From Physcia stellaris (taxonomy: Eukaryota; Ascomycota; Lecanoromycetes; Caliciales; Physciaceae): a stretch of 64,000 nucleotides of DNA. Below the pieces are notes generated by a model. It saw only the letters and a list, made by a program, of their open reading frames with translations, was not told the origin of the DNA and ran no database searches. Position numbers and translations under genes: made by a program. Location: NCBI GenBank assembly GCA_018902385.1, contig JABSSW010000010.1:248001-312000 (forward strand), given 5' to 3'. This document shows, in pieces, positions 6,377 to 64,000 of the stretch (its first letter is position 1; each line of letters opens with the position of its first letter).

Positions 6377-8278
6377 CTAATGCACCAGTGATACCGCTGA
6401 GTCCAGGACTAGTAGATATAGGATTCTATCATCAGCTGCAAGGGAATCCGATAATTGTCTTTGTGACTCATCGTTGAGATCCTCCATATCCTTTGGCGGT
6501 GCTGAATCCGATGGATCACCAAAATCACAAAGCCCTTTAGAAATCTGTAACTCGTCTAGTATTCCATCTTTGGAAATATCAAGCTTCCATAGCTGCTGCT
6601 TGAAATGCGTCCGATGGACTTCCATCACTTTATAACCCCTATCACGGACTATCATGTCGAGCTCTCCATGTAAGGTGGATGACCAGCCACAATACTCGTG
6701 TCCGGCGGGTTGGGTATAGTAGTGATTTCTAGTGTAGTCTGTCGGAAGTATTGGGCTTTTCAGCTTTTTAAGATCTGCCCAAAGTGTCTCTATACTTATT
6801 GACTTCATACGATCGGCAATGTCTTGGGGATTTCCTGGCCATAAGTCGAGCTTTTGAAAGTGCTTGACCATATACCCATAGCAAAGTGAATCGCACGCTT
6901 CTCGGTTCGTTGATGACTTGCAGAGAAATTGGTCACCGGAGTAACCGTACTTGATAACCATAGATTGACAGGCTTCAATAAGCTTAGTGAGTGCAGCACA
7001 CCGAGCGGCAAGAAGACAGTCTATTGCACACAGAGCATTAGCCCTCGAAAACGTCGGGTAGCAATATGGACACGGAAAGGGGAGAACCTTAGAACAGGGT
7101 ACTTACCTGGAAGTCCAGGTGGAAGCTTGTCATCGAGCACCGTTCCAGATGAAGCAAGACATTGCTTGGAATCATTGGTCTTACACCTCCAGAGAAGTTG
7201 CTCGATAACACTCTCGAACTTCTGCTCATCGCCGACTGCCCAAGTAATAAACGCCCACTCCTCATGCTCTTCGTAAGTCAAGTAAACCAACCACGGTGAC
7301 ATCCAATTGCTGAGCCAAGGCCTCAAGACACGTAAGCAGTCATATTTGTCGCCAAGAACACAGAGGTGAAACAACTGCTTGAAATCGATGGAGCTCGGCA
7401 GCAAGTGAAATTTCAGATGGGACGCAAGCAGGATAATGAAGAATGCGTAAATGTCATCTTCGGGAAAGGTGATTGGATCAGCTCCTGGATTCGTCTCCTT
7501 GAAGCCATGAGAGAGCATTGCGCGCCATGCTTTGCTAGTAAGACACATAACCTTCGAAGAGACGCGGAATGTCTTCGCCTCAGTGTCGAGACCAACGGCC
7601 ACATCAAGGTCTCCATCAGGGTCGATATGAATGGTTCTGTCGGATGCAAGCTCCAGGGCATTGCTGAGACCATCCTTTGTGGCCATGCTGGAACGTTCGA
7701 TATTGGAATACGACCGCGGTGGTCCTCATGAACGATGCTTGTAGGAAACCAGGTACGGGTTCAAGTGAGGGTAGCTGAAGAAGTGTTATGGGTGCCGTAA
7801 TTTATCCAAAATTTCACTCTACTGCATTTACCCCAATTGATCATTCATCCGGCATGTATTCGGTCTTCTCGGCCACTCACATTCGCCACCATACTCTGGC
7901 AAGTAATCCGAGGTTTGCACTCTGTGCAAGTACCTGTTCGAACAGTCATCACGCTTTTGCTAGTTAACATTATCTGAAATTCATTCAGCAACGAAAGAGC
8001 CAGGTCGTGAGAGATAGAAACTTCATGTCTCCCATGTAGTTTCATCTTTCAACGGCTCTGTTCTATCAATGTTCGATCTGAGAAAAGATATTAGTCCATA
8101 AGTAGAACGACCTTCAATGGGGGTGGAATGAATATTAAGCTTGGAGGACCAGTGAAAGATCGTATCATCTTTCCTGCATCAGAACCTGTGCGCAGGTCAG
8201 GGTAAGATTGGCAACGGCGGCCCTTCAGGAAATACCTTCATATAACACTATCCCATACACCGTCACTAGTCCTAGACA
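6081..8278. repeat. Segmental tandem duplication, copy A
   Basis: About 2.2 kb unit containing BTB gene A. Its downstream marker (6081-6120) matches 8308-8345. Its upstream marker (8206-8278) matches 10886-10962, with roughly 80 percent identity by eye. Copy A's upstream marker directly abuts copy B's downstream marker, as expected for a head-to-tail duplication. Confidence 0.75.
6377..7686 (-). CDS. BTB/POZ-domain protein (copy A)
   Basis: BTB domain protein of the fungal type, likely a protein-interaction factor or a Cullin-3 adaptor; the partner is unknown. Exon 1 is 7109-7686 (ATG at 7686) and exon 2 is 6377-7020, separated by an 88-nt intron with donor GTAAGT and acceptor AATAG. Residues about 20-120 form the BTB fold: an IDPDGDLDVAVG strand, FRVSSKVMCLTSKAWRAMLS, FPEDD and FFIILLASHLKFHLLP. 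The segment after it (LGDKYDCLRVLRPWLSNWM) is also typical. The C-terminal part shares the layout of copy B but is unnamed. It reads clean, without breaks, unlike its neighbour. It lies in copy A of a tandem duplication. Confidence 0.85.
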
Positions 8279-8748: not shown

Positions 8749-9527
8749 CTACAAGAATTTGATATCGGGGAAGAGCTCTTTGGAGGGTTGAAGCTTCTGC
8801 CGCTGCGCCTCTAGATGAATTCTGTAAGATTCATGAAGTAGCGACGCGGTTTTGTTCAACACAGTCCTTGTCTCAGCTCTCAGCGGTTTGACGAGGCCAC
8901 ATTTGGGATGGGTGTTTCCAGGGTCCCCTTGCTCGCGATAAACATGATTTGATATCCATTTGATCTGAGCGCACAATCGCTCGGGAGTAGTCTCCGTCAG
9001 TCGTGAGGCGATCGCGGATGGCTGGCCAGGCCATATTCCGAGCTTTCCAAACGAAATCACAAGAGCCCCTACAGAGAGCGCGTGACACGCGTCCTTGGCT
9101 TTTTGGCCTTTACAGCTCGTTGCTTCGGAATTGTCGATGAATTTGTGGCAAATCTGAATAATTTCCGTGAGCGTGTCCAGTCGCGCTTGCAAGATTCTGC
9201 CTGTTGAGTAAGTGGTTAGTGGATGGATAAAGTAGGTAGGTTGAGGAAGTCATGAGATAGGGAAGTCGCACCATGGCACTTACCTGGAAGTCCTGAGGGC
9301 AAGTCTCTATCTAAGTTTTTGCTGTTAGATGACAAACAATTCCCTTTCCTGTTGGTATAGCAAGTATCAACCAGCGCTTCTGTTATATTTTTAAACCTTT
9401 GCGTATCGCCTACGACCCAGGCGACGAACGCCTGACTTCCGAAATCGATAGGGTCTCCATGTTTGAGCCATGCATCCACCCAGGCGGAGATCCAGGGTCC
9501 TAGTACGGAAACACAATCATATTTTTA

Positions 9528-9612
9528 GCGTATGCATATCTCATCGGAAAGCTCGCTTAAATGCGGATCCGCAAATCCCCTCCCCGCATCAAATTTCGAT
9601 GTGATTTCTGGA
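9528..9612 (+). repeat. Left terminal inverted repeat
   Basis: About 85 bp. The first 64 bases match the reverse complement of the right end without a visible mismatch, followed by scattered mismatches to about 9612. Confidence 0.85.
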
Positions 9613-9768
9613 ATTTTCAATATTCAACGCAGCAAATTATTGATAATCAATGCTTTTTATTATCAGTGAGTATATCGCATTGAGTTTCTGTATATATCGC
9701 TTAACTTTGTTGTGATGTTGAAGTACTGACTCATCACGCAGTCAGCTCACTCCTTCGCTGTCACTTAA

Positions 9769-9802
9769 TCAGGGTTAGGGTCGATGCCAGCCCTAACCCT
9801 GA
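9769..9802. repeat. Central hairpin with telomere-like TTAGGG
   Basis: Arms TCAGGGTTAGGG (9769-9780) and CCCTAACCCTGA (9791-9802) are perfect 12-bp complements with a 10-nt loop. They lie at the centre of the MITE-like element. Confidence 0.8.
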
Positions 9803-9924
9803 GATGCATTTTGAACGAATAAAGCACCGAAATGATGAAAAATCATGAATTTGTTAAGCAAATTGTACAGAAATGCGATTTGAAGCTATGCAGTCAAAAA
9901 ATTCAAAGAATTGATGTTCGGGTT

Positions 9925-10010
9925 TTCCACAGATCACACCGAAATTTGGTGCGGGGAGGGGATTTGCGGATCCGCATTTAAGCGAGCTTTCCGATGAGAT
10001 ATGCATACGC
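9925..10010 (-). repeat. Right terminal inverted repeat
   Basis: Reverse-complement partner of 9528-9612, ending GATATGCATACGC directly before the flanking TA. Confidence 0.85.
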
Positions 10011-10405
10011 TAATTATCGCAGATACCGCAGATCGCCACTAAAAGCTCACGTGAAGTGTTCGCTGGAATCGCCTGAAACTTCAAATGGCTGGCAAGGAGC
10101 ACGATGAAGAACGCTTCAAGGTTATCTTCCGGGAAGTTGATATCTTCAGCACCGGAGACTGACTCTCGGAAACCGTATTTGGGAGAGAGCATCGCCTTCC
10201 ACACTGGACTAGCCAGCCGCATGGCGTGCGAGGAGACGCGGAATCTCTTCGACTCTTTATCATCACCAACAACTAGATAGATGTCTCCATCTGGATCAAT
10301 GTCAATCGTGCCGATAGGCCCAGGCGGAGGTTGGCGGGTAAGACCATTGCTCGTAGACAAAATATCGAGGTTTATCTTGGCGTCTGGCTTGTCATCTGAG
10401 TCCAT

Positions 10406-15478: not shown

Positions 15479-17037
15479 TGTTCTCCTGTCGACATGAAGC
15501 AGCATGGAACGTTCTTCCCTTTTCGCCTTCTCGTCGGCAATGGAGGGGGACTTCGTTCGGAATCTGTCAGCACGGGGTCATGTTTTCTGTCTTTTTCCGC
15601 GTTTGAGAGATGGATGGACCTTTGCGATGGGGTATTCGAGGGAAACCTCACTCACACGATTGTACTCAGATGTCTGGAATACCTTACCTACTTGTATCAA
15701 ACTTCGCCGAAGGGTCTATTCCCTTTTTTTTTCCGGTTTAATCATTTGTTTTTTCATGGTTGCCTGCCCCTCCTTTGCTATGTATCAAAGATAGCCCACA
15801 CCTTTCTCCGGGAATATGGGGTGGCGGGATCTTGAGCACGAGCACGCGGGGTGATGGGGAGCAAAGGTACAAAAAGTTGTTATTAGGTAGTATGCAGAAC
15901 GATTCTCAATGGATGAGTGGGGAAGTCGCTGCTCCTCCTTCTTCTTCGTCTTCTTCGCATGGATGAAAGTGTGTAGGAGAGAACAAGCGTATGTTTGCGA
16001 GTTGCTTTTCTATTTTTCACGTCCTCCCAGTCCCCAGTTTCTCTCCTTCCTCGTGCTCCTGGTCCTCGTCCTCCTCTTCTTCTTCCCCCAATCCCAATTC
16101 CTAATCACTAAAAGCACGAGCACCCATTCCCCATCCCATTCCATCCCCAAATCTCGTTCCATACCCACCACCCATCCCCGTCCCCATCCCCCATCCCCCA
16201 TCCCCGTCCCCATCCCAACTCCCAATCCCAATCCCAACCCCAACTCCCAATCCACTTACAGTCCCTAAAACTATTTATCAATGCCAAGATCCCAGCCGCA
16301 AATCCCATCCCCATCCCCATCCCCCATCCCCATCCCCCATCCCCATTGCATCCCCCATCCCATCCCCATCTCATCGCCCACCGCTCATCCCCCATCCCCC
16401 AAATCCAACTTCTCCCGTTCAACTTCCTTCGCTTTTTTTTTAAAAAAGATCATGCATCACAAGCCCACGATCAGCTCACCCAAAAACCCGTCAAATCAAC
16501 TCCCTGAACTCAGCTTATGCCCTTTTCATGGACGCGATTTCTGGGCATATGAGAGAAAAGGGCGCGGGGGGGCAATTTAACAAACGTAAATTGGTAAGGG
16601 AGTTCGCTGCGCCGCTTGAGAACTATGTGATGGGCTTTTGTGCAACTTTGGGAGGCGTGTTTAGGGGATTTGAGGGAAATCCGCCGAAGGGGGGTTATAA
16701 GGGAGGAGATGAGTTAGCTATGGGAGATGGTATGGAAGAAAGGTAAGGAAGATGAACGGGATGGGGAGAGAGGAAGGGCTGTCTTGCATTTGCTGAGGGA
16801 TGAAATTAGGGAGGAAGGGGTTCAGGTTTTTCAAATCGAGCTGCTTCAACGAGAAGAACAATTCGATTGCTTCATTGTTCCCAGGTCTAAATATCCCATA
16901 CCTCATAGCCAGCCAGCCAGGCCCAGATCGTCATTGCAGAGAGAGGGTCATTAACTGCTCTAAATTACCATTACATTATTCCCTCCCCCATTCCCCTCTC
17001 CCCAAAATAGCAATACCCACCCGCCCAAAACATCCCC
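15479..17037. other. 3' region of PUB1 and simple-sequence DNA
   Basis: It contains the 3' untranslated region of the RNA-binding gene, then C-rich simple repeats (see 16126-16406), then G-rich DNA to about 16830. Long ORFs here are artefacts of the low complexity. Confidence 0.6.
16126..16406. repeat. CCATCCC-type simple repeat tracts
   Basis: Two blocks (about 16126-16260 and 16300-16406) of loosely repeated CCATCCC/CCCATCCC units. The opposite strand has runs of GGGG separated by AT, able in principle to form G-quadruplexes. Confidence 0.8.
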
Positions 17038-61429: not shown

Positions 61430-61870
61430 TTTGCGCTCATCAATGGTCCCGGCCGTAATGCGTTCTCTCCAAGGTAGACGAAAACAAAATAAGAGAAATC
61501 TGAAGTAAATCACCAAGTGATTGCCCCGGCCGTAGTGCGTTTCCTGATCAAGATGAGCTGAGAGTCGAAAGTTAGGAATGTCGAAAATGAATCAGAATTT
61601 GAGCGGTTTGGTGCCCTGCCGTAGTGCGTTCCTTTTTTGGGAGATAGGTCAAAGTAGACGAAGAAATGAATTCAATGACCCTGGCCGTAATGCGTTCCTT
61701 TTTGGGAGGTATGCCAAGGTAGACGAGAACAAAATAAGAGAAATCGGAAGTAAACCACCAAGGTACGACTCCTGTCATAGTGTGTTCCTTTTGGGAGATA
61801 GGCCAAAGTAGACGAGAAATCGGAAGTAAACCATCAAGGTACGACTTCTGCCATAATGCGATGTAGGGCT
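61430..61870 (+). repeat. Decayed tandem array, units of about 66-90 bp
   Basis: Six copies of a core like CCGTARTGCGTTCC start near 61453, 61530, 61619, 61685, 61775 and 61851. They are followed by shared sequence (TTTTGGGAGATAGGCCAAAGTAGACGAGAA, ATAAGAGAAATCGGAAGTAAACCACCAAGG) in different combinations. Copies differ mainly by C/T and G/A changes. A seventh core lies at 63026, beyond the AT-rich block. Confidence 0.8.
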
Positions 61871-64000
61871 AGTTTTTCAGCGCTGTGTCGAAATCTTGAG
61901 TCTCCGTCTCTGAAAATAAGAAATCGTGATTTCTTGCTCGTATAATAATCTTTTTGCTTTTTTTCGTTTTCGTTGTCAATCTTTTTCTTTAGCTAATCGA
62001 ACGAGTTTCTCTGTGTTCATTTCTAGATCATCTAAATACGCTTTGAAAGTGTTATTTTCCGTTTTCAACGAACGATTTTGTCGTTTCAGCTTTTCAATTC
62101 GTGTACGAAAAATTCTTGTCGATTTCAATCATAATGCGAATTGTTTTTTATTGACAATTTCGTTAGCGACTTGTTTTCGAATCAATTTCACAACTTTGTT
62201 TTCAATCGTTAATCGAGTTTTTTTCATTTTGAACATGAACTTGTCGATTTTGCATGTAATGAATTGATAAATTAAATTGACACGCGTTTTTTTGATTTTT
62301 TTTGCTTTTCGATGTTTTTGTTGTTTTTCGAAATTTTCTCGTAAAGAGATTTTTGTTTTGTTTCAATTGTTTCATTCGTTTCTTTTTGATTTCAGTTTTT
62401 GTTCGAAACAAATTGAATTCGCGAATTTTGTTTTTGAAAAAGTCGAATTCGATTGCTCAAAGTTTTTTAAACGTTTATTCGATCATATAAATTCGTCGTT
62501 GTTTTTTTTAACATCAAATGATAATATTTTTCGAACAAAACATTTTTAAAATTTCAAACGTATGAAATTATGATTCATCGTTTTTTAATCGTAAATGACG
62601 TGTCGTTGTTTAATTTCAATAATTTCTTCTCGCTAAATTTATTTTTCATGAAAACGTTTTTCGTGACGTGTTCATATTTTTGTTTTTGTTTTGTTGTCGT
62701 TTTTCGTTTTTTCTTTTTTGTTTTGTTCGATTCAACAATTTTTGTTGTCGATTTCTTTTTAACATTCATCGTTTGTTTTTGAAATTTTTGAAGAATTTTC
62801 TCTGTGTATGAAAAAATTTTTTTCGTGTTTTTTGCAATTTTTTTCGTGTTCATTGTTTGTTGTTTTGTTGTTTTTTCTTGCTTTTTTTTTTTTTATTTTT
62901 ATTCTTTTGCTTTGCAATCTTTTTTTGTTTTTCTGTATTCATTGTCTGCATAGATGCTTTTTGCACATTAATTGAAAATATGAGTGATGATAAAGTGAAT
63001 AAAAAAAAAGTGTGCGAATTTCTCGCCGTAATGTGTTTCTCAGTCGAGTAGTGAGATTGAGCTGAGTGAAAAGATGATTTCGGAAATGAGAAATTTGATA
63101 ATTCGTTCATGATATTTTTGTCGATCGCAAAGTTCTGTAATTTTGTGAAATTGAAATGTCTTTGAAATTAAAACTTGAATTGAATGAAACAGGCGATTTT
63201 ATAAGATGAAATCTAGTTTGAAATATTCTGAATCGAAAAACGTATCGTCGAAAATTTGAATTGCGCTAAATCATAATGAAGATATTACGAAAATGAATAC
63301 GACGAAAATCATCATATCGTCGCGAAAAAATTCGCGAAATTGTTATCGTCTTGCGTGCATCTCGTTTCGCTCAAATATGTCATTTTGTCATAAGTGATTA
63401 CATTTTTCATCGACGTTTTTAGATTTGAACAGTCTGTAATCGATTGTTTATCTTGATATTTCGAATTTTACATTTTTCAGAATGAAAATTTAACGTCATC
63501 GTGTTTTGAACGAGATGAAAAAATTCATTATTTTATTTTTTTCGAATTTTTCTCGAAATCTTTTCTGTCGAAACAAAAATCGAAAAACAATACACGATAA
63601 ATATTAATGAATCATGATTTCTGTGAAGTCTTTCAATAGTGTCGATGATGATCGTCTGTCATAATTGATAATTCGTTTCGCGCAATTGTGAAATCTCATT
63701 ATTTGATTTATTCATTGAAATTCATAATTTGAACACAACTTTTTGAGTCTTGTGATTCACACTCTGCTTGAAAGTAATGCTAGTTGAGATTTTTCAAATG
63801 TTATTTTACGACAGGCGTTTTTGAATTGAAAAATTTCGTTAAGTTTCGATCTTCATAGTGATTTGTGTGATGATATTTTGAAAGTTTCTAAATCTCGAAA
63901 TTAAGTGAATGCTGAGAGAGACACTCGTTCGTTAAAGTATTATCGTCGATTATTTTCGAGCACACTTTCAATGACTGTAAGTTGAATAATGTAGATTATT
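61871..64000. other. AT-rich domain with CpG excess
   Basis: About 70-75 percent A+T by eye to the end of the window, T-rich on the + strand from 61930 to 62960. TTCG/CGAA patterns are abundant, CC and GG do not occur at all in 62101-63020, and TA is scarce. This is unlike the rest of the window. A related repeat core sits at 63026. No intact gene; see the decayed frame at 61885-62374. Confidence 0.75.
61885..62374 (-). pseudogene. Decayed Lys/Arg-rich coiled-coil reading frame with TGA stops only
   Basis: One minus-strand frame stays protein-like for about 160 codons. Segments include KTKISLRENFEKQQKHRKAK, RLTIENKVVKLIRKQVANEI and RIEKLKRQNRSLKTENNTF, which look like a coiled coil with heptad spacing. 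It is interrupted only by TGA, at 62372-62374, 62363-62365, 62129-62131 and 61976-61978. CGA is the main Arg codon, so CGA-to-TGA change explains the stops. It may be the remnant of a retroelement or other mobile-element protein; no transposon motif is visible. Confidence 0.4.

Follow-up and report, generated by a model that had tools for sequence, protein, structure and literature searches.

In a stretch of 64,000 nucleotides of Physcia stellaris DNA (hereafter the window), one of two paralogous genes is interrupted by a short element with inverted ends. This raises the question of where exactly the element ends, which bases were duplicated upon its insertion, and what kind of enzyme moved it.

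The insert and the gene it interrupts

As listed in Table 1, the element is bounded by two arms that are 96% complementary over 89 nt (85 of 89 positions matched), the first mismatch occurring at position 65, and these form the sole long inverted arm pair in the window. A 34-base pattern of the ends was found in the window at these two arm sites only, and not once in 100 shuffles, and the element strand folds with -144 kcal/mol, compared to -55.1 (sd 4.28) for 100 shuffled versions (z -20.8). The mirror-image ends noticed in the first-pass annotation are thus confirmed, whereas the length that it gave, 483 bp (9526..10012), had to be corrected to 489 bp. Its description of the insert as a non-autonomous inverted-repeat transposon also holds. 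The element combines the features of a MITE, i.e. a length of 489 bp without coding capacity, 89-bp inverted ends, several dispersed copies, and outer parts of 220 and 186 bp that are common to three long transposase-bearing copies. In the centre of the element, at 9769-9802, telomere-like sequence forms a stem of 12 perfectly paired bp, TCAGGGTTAGGG / CCCTAACCCTGA, where the aligned C4 and C51 copies are variable.

Table 1. Coordinates of the element, its flanking duplication and the two paralogous genes in the window
Feature	Position	Strand	Remark
MITE, TTAGCG...CGCTAA, 489 bp	9525..10013	.	inverted arms, copy comparison, joined genes
Left terminal inverted repeat, 89 bp	9525..9613	+	4/89 positions differ between arms
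Right terminal inverted repeat, 89 bp	9925..10013	-	pairs with left arm
Outer 220 bp common with long transposase-bearing copies	9525..9744	+	78-83% identity; L010 copy from element base 14
Centre, 83 bp, without significant match in long copies	9745..9827	+
Outer 186 bp common with long copies	9828..10013	+	81-83% identity
Target-site duplication TT, left copy	9523..9524	.	copy comparison
Target-site duplication TT, right copy	10014..10015	.	copy comparison
Gene B, coding part upstream of insert, starts MDSDD	10016..10405	-
Gene B, coding part downstream of insert, up to GTAAGT donor 9283-9278	9284..9524	-	splice site by eye
Gene B, second exon	8749..9196	-	acceptor by eye
Paralogue A, region of the first exon, no insert at GDKYDC	7021..7686	-
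Paralogue A, second exon region	6377..6961	-

The interrupted gene (gene B) resembles paralogue A on both sides of the insert, with 47% over 116 columns upstream of it, 46% when the two parts of the first exon are joined, and, in the second exon, 30% over 123 columns, in agreement with the earlier statement that one of two paralogues was broken. The BTB domain in which the insertion was thought to lie is less certain. The joined gene contains the BTB-like stretch ICDKYDC, but the Pfam family PF00651 matched the joined protein below the cut-off of 20.5 bits (E 0.24, 12.0 bits) and did not match paralogue A. A paralogue at C1 likewise remained under the cut-off (E 0.036, 14.7 bits), and one at C4 gave no match to this family.

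The first exon of gene B contains no stop apart from the one in the element, and its current frame ends with DN* at the element border, the in-frame stop being brought in by the insertion. Because there is no other stop, it is plausible that the element was caught just as it had broken the gene, as suggested in the first-pass annotation, and, judged from the sequence, this lack of stops and the plausible splice sites (assigned by eye) fit a fairly recent, undated insertion. The stop-free first exon, and a GTATGC in the element end on the coding strand, could also speak for an insert that acts as a new, introner-like intron, with gene B still being produced. However, the same element end places an in-frame TAG ahead of this GT, so that the frame closes with DN* before the possible donor. 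This argues against splicing out of the host transcript, which defines an introner, and the barely conceivable intron reading was set aside on that ground.

Copies in the genome and the target-site duplication

Searching the genome (43.97 Mb, 147 contigs) with the element gave at least 58 matches, of which only the best candidates were scored, and the copy counts are therefore lower bounds. In total, at least 16 copies and one fragment were found, so the lack of any other copy, which had been named beforehand as an argument against a transposon, does not apply. They comprise at least three window-type copies (C10, C4 and C51), at least 10 copies of a sister family of ~505 bp, which has ~63-71 bp at the ends in common with the window type (C50, C69, C32, C25, C73, C38, C13, C57, C7 and an insert-split copy at C14), and at least three long copies (two at C29 and one at C58); the fragment, at C38:411814, is a lone end reading CGCCAA. 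A 22-base end pattern with up to three mismatches gave 32 matches. The 28 with at most two mismatches all lie at known copy loci, and the remaining four, with three mismatches, equal the number obtained with a reversed control pattern. The sister-family copy at C14 (C14:471277-474886; L067, L025) is split by an insert of ~3.1 kb, and 5 bp of the query are covered by both halves, possibly reflecting a 5-bp duplication.

The 13 copies with both ends intact all read TTARCG...CGYTAA, and thus the TA on either side of the window copy, which had been taken for the target-site duplication, is part of the element itself; the true duplication is the TT just outside. An identical outer dinucleotide was present on both sides in 13 of the 14 copies in which both ends could be placed: TA in six, TT in three, and AA, AT, CA and AG in one each. 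The single exception, C57, has an altered left end and is flanked by AG and TA. Aside from C57, three loci were left out of the 13: C4, which lacks its left end, the second C29 copy, which lacks its right end, and the C38 fragment. We scanned the boundary at offsets from -3 to +3 and for duplication lengths of 1 to 6, with the flanks re-paired in 2000 trials, and only the chosen boundary combined with a length of 2 beat every re-pairing, with 12 of 12 copies matching, compared to 3.75 on average and at most 9 after re-pairing. The C14 copy, with TT on both sides, lies outside this 12-copy set and is the thirteenth match. The TA inside the ends also matched in 12 of 12 copies, as it did under every re-pairing, since it is invariant among the copies. 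Among the duplicated dinucleotides, TA accounts for six of the 13 compared to 4.2% of window dinucleotides (P 7e-6), and dinucleotides consisting only of A and T for 11 of the 13 compared to a background of 24.5% (P 9e-6). The IS630-Tc1-mariner group is marked by a TA duplication, whereas the duplication found here is of 2 bp and reads TA in only six of the 13.

Such elements are usually expected to target TA strictly, in which case the insert would be a canonical Tc1/mariner-type MITE of 483 bp between two TAs, at TTAA-like sites. The window copy and the 12 complete copies of the re-pairing test do have TA at either end, and TA is also the normal target of the type of transposase found in the long copies; PMC10045372 names it as the duplication general to the IS630-Tc1-mariner group. 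However, this invariant TA matches under any re-pairing, whereas the outer dinucleotide varies and matches in true pairs only. As a control, we used a second DDE_3, Tc1-like family from the same genome, with ends TACTACGTA. Eight of its copies were inspected by eye and five had both ends, while C24, the second C4 copy and the second C9 copy dropped out because of an altered or lost end. All five had TA on both sides, but in none was the next dinucleotide outward repeated, and shifting the boundary outward by one base gave one match in five (C37, CT/CT), which chance could produce.

The junction can also be read from the genes into which copies have inserted. When the sites of 12 copies were joined, three gave long frames (304, 318 and 372 codons), the next being 160 codons. 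In the window, removal of the element together with 2 bp turns gene B into AICGICDKYDCVSVLGPW, which restores the BTB-like ICDKYDC, and the matching stretches in paralogue A (LGDKYDCLRVLRPW), the C4 paralogue (LADKYDLARKLQPW) and the C1 paralogue (VICDKYDCAVAIQAW) show DKYD without additional residues at the insertion position. The C32 copy interrupts a PLD-like gene at HPKFLIVD, which we take to agree with the HxKxxxxD motif of the PLD type. The joined C32 protein matched Pfam PLDc_2 (E 6.2e-10) in two stretches, the best of which (277-315) does not reach the insertion site at residue 170, and a C9 paralogue of this gene aligns over the site (query 143-218, E 5.2e-6). The C38 copy splits a third gene, and its site lies within a HET domain match (E 2.5e-14, residues 22-107 of the protein aligned with 1-89 of the profile). 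This HET-domain gene, like the genes with introns, would suit a filamentous fungus. Excising the element plus 2 bp restores the frames of all three genes, whereas the TA reading leaves DN*KYDC, HLNPKF and RY*YLW, that is, two stops and one lost HxK spacing. Insertions in three recognisable genes thus fix the junctions to the base. Based on the re-pairing of copies, the control family and the joined genes, a TA duplication was rejected, and strict TA targeting is highly improbable. Repeats of the copy flanks were also sought as empty sites within the examined loci, and none was usable.

Long relatives and the probable enzyme behind the insertions

The element had been put forward as a seed for finding its autonomous partner, and it did lead to three long relatives that bear a decayed DDE_3 transposase gene between the same ends. 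These copies share a core of ~4 kb with two convergent coding regions, and the first C29 copy and C58 contain additional inserted DNA. The DDE_3 region occupies the same location in all three, and it is the type of catalytic domain by which the IS630-Tc1-mariner group is recognised. With stops read as X, the domain passed the cut-off of 28.6 bits in the long copy L009 (2.8e-7, 30.9 bits) and fell just below it in the long copy L010 (3e-6, 27.6 bits); locus L064 was also above the cut-off (35.3 bits). In a genome-wide profile scan, both C29 copies passed the cut-off (32.0 and 30.9 bits, the latter being L010), and C58, in which this region is frameshifted, was absent from the list and detected by tblastn only. 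Related DDE remnants with 68-72% DNA identity are present at C15, C2 and C40; searches for inverted repeats and for element ends placed no ends for these older copies. Among eight copies, the first catalytic residue is D in three, N in three and outside the pattern in two, and the second catalytic D is N in all eight, which may reflect a mutation hot spot or an old loss. From this second position to the last E there are 34 residues in five of the eight, the other three not being measurable. An intact transposase of this family was not found in this genome, and a profile of these transposases had no match among the solved structures of the PDB.

The second coding region is a frame of 279 codons, uninterrupted in the two C29 copies but broken up in C58, for which no Pfam family was matched. 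Stretches with weak similarity to it adjoin the DDE_3 remnant at C15 (E 9.7e-4, 30%) and lie ~10 kb from the one at C40 (E 2.7e-5, 31%), and because of this proximity the two-gene layout may be of old origin. The C58 copy spans 35.7 kb and was considered as a cargo carrier, which was rejected, as it aligns with the common ~4-kb core; its surplus of 29.7 kb and 2 kb consists of insertions inside the core, largely AT-rich, in which one frame resembles a retrotransposon integrase by eye.

Taken together, we consider it likely, with a probability of roughly 0.8, that the 489-bp insert belongs, as a MITE moved in trans, to a Tc1/mariner-like family (IS630-Tc1-mariner, DDE_3) with a relaxed, TA-leaning targeting of 2 bp. 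In this mechanism, the transposase of the long relatives would recognise the MITE ends and act in trans, cutting just outside TTA...TAA and joining the ends to target strands two bases apart, after which gap repair would duplicate the target dinucleotide. The 2-bp spacing is that of Tc1/mariner integration, and the TA requirement would be relaxed to a preference. Several findings argue against this reading: the second D is N in eight of eight copies, the transposase is not intact, the C57 flanks do not match, there are only three long copies among the matches listed, and the second reading frame could be relevant to mobility.

This last point leads to the alternative that another enzyme mobilises the family, either the real transposase encoded by, or accompanied by, the second frame or one from an unrelated CACTA- or ISL2EU-like superfamily with 2-bp duplications, and that the DDE_3 gene is a passenger. 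The second frame is common to the three long copies, has weak matches at C15 and C40 and matched no Pfam family, and Tc1-type enzymes do not usually leave 2-bp duplications that are free in sequence. Yet DDE_3 is found in the same place in the three long copies and beside the second-frame remnant at C15, and both the 2-bp spacing and the preference for TA suit a DDE_3 enzyme. CACTA/EnSpm and ISL2EU elements are recognised by CACTA ends or by matches to family proteins; here the ends are TTAGCG, and the scanned parts of the long copies gave no Pfam match to either. Mobilisation by another enzyme is therefore unlikely. Within the preferred Tc1/mariner-like MITE reading, it is conceivable, at somewhat less than even odds, that the family forms a separate two-gene fungal branch whose transposase no longer depends strictly on TA and takes A/T dinucleotides for the most part, with the second convergent protein perhaps helping. 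At present, the family probably can no longer move in this genome, since the sequenced partner copies have stops in frame and have lost the second catalytic D (it is N), in addition to containing frameshifts.

Relation to known transposons and decay of the family

TA targeting is an accepted hallmark of Tc1/mariner-type transposons and is used in the classification of MITEs. The family resembles them in its DDE_3 domain, the DD34E-type spacing of the five measurable copies, its 2-bp duplication, preference for TA and short derivatives that keep the ends, but differs in that seven of the 13 duplications are not TA, the ends are ~89 bp and there is a second convergent frame. Fungal Fot and Fot-like pogo transposons, for which PMC7386202 gives TAA and TAAA duplications, belong to the same wider group and also depart from TA, but have longer, fixed duplications and DDD enzymes, whereas here the duplication is 2 bp and variable and the last residue is E. 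Tc1/mariner enzymes can use non-TA sites, as reported for 28 thousand insertions of Sleeping Beauty (PMC5801840) and for a few insertions of Mboumar-9 with manganese (PMC2581405), a minor or induced use that contrasts with about half of the natural insertions here. Among MITEs of Mycosphaerella graminicola, nine of 13 families have 2-bp duplications, eight being TA and one CT, according to PMC4522978; compared by description only, each of those families keeps to one dinucleotide, and here it varies. The ciliate TBE and Tec elements combine a DD34E transposase with further frames, one of them in the complement (PMC7325037), and, again by description only, have three reading frames compared to two in the long relatives. 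In the consulted passages of the literature, including PMC12730594 and PMC4188875 and outside Repbase and most subscription journals, we found no description of a Tc1/mariner-type family with a free 2-bp duplication, and TTAGCG did not occur in the literature among the matches listed. If our reading is true, a natural relaxed-TA family that retains the 2-bp spacing would uncouple the spacing of the cuts from the recognition of bases, and TTA...TAA ends would mislead TA-based annotation and cause the family to be misfiled.

In the 505-bp family, nine of the 10 copies were compared and differ by 3-10% from their consensus, and C-to-T plus G-to-A make up 110 of the 254 changes. Counted on both strands, C-to-T changes are more frequent than expected from the supply in the consensus in the contexts CT (38, supply 34) and CC (26, supply 18), and less frequent in the context CA (33, supply 60). 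The bias in this family (e.g. L015 1144-1650) resembles repeat-induced point mutation, the usual context of which is CA, but with an unusual CT/CC context. In the long copies, the indices for repeat-induced point mutation are not raised (TA/AT 0.36 and 0.44), and the L010 core has mostly 25-31% GC.

Elsewhere in the genome, C22:253895-255357 (L049 639-2101) holds an element that is close to single-copy, matches DDE_3 weakly and has inverted ends of ~61 bp, with CATGC on both flanks, possibly a 5-bp duplication. The window itself contains an array of short CCCATC-like direct repeats (16133-16399) and, at 61469-61858, direct repeats of 45-73 nt that border an AT-rich stretch; the GC content of positions 62001-64000 is 28%.
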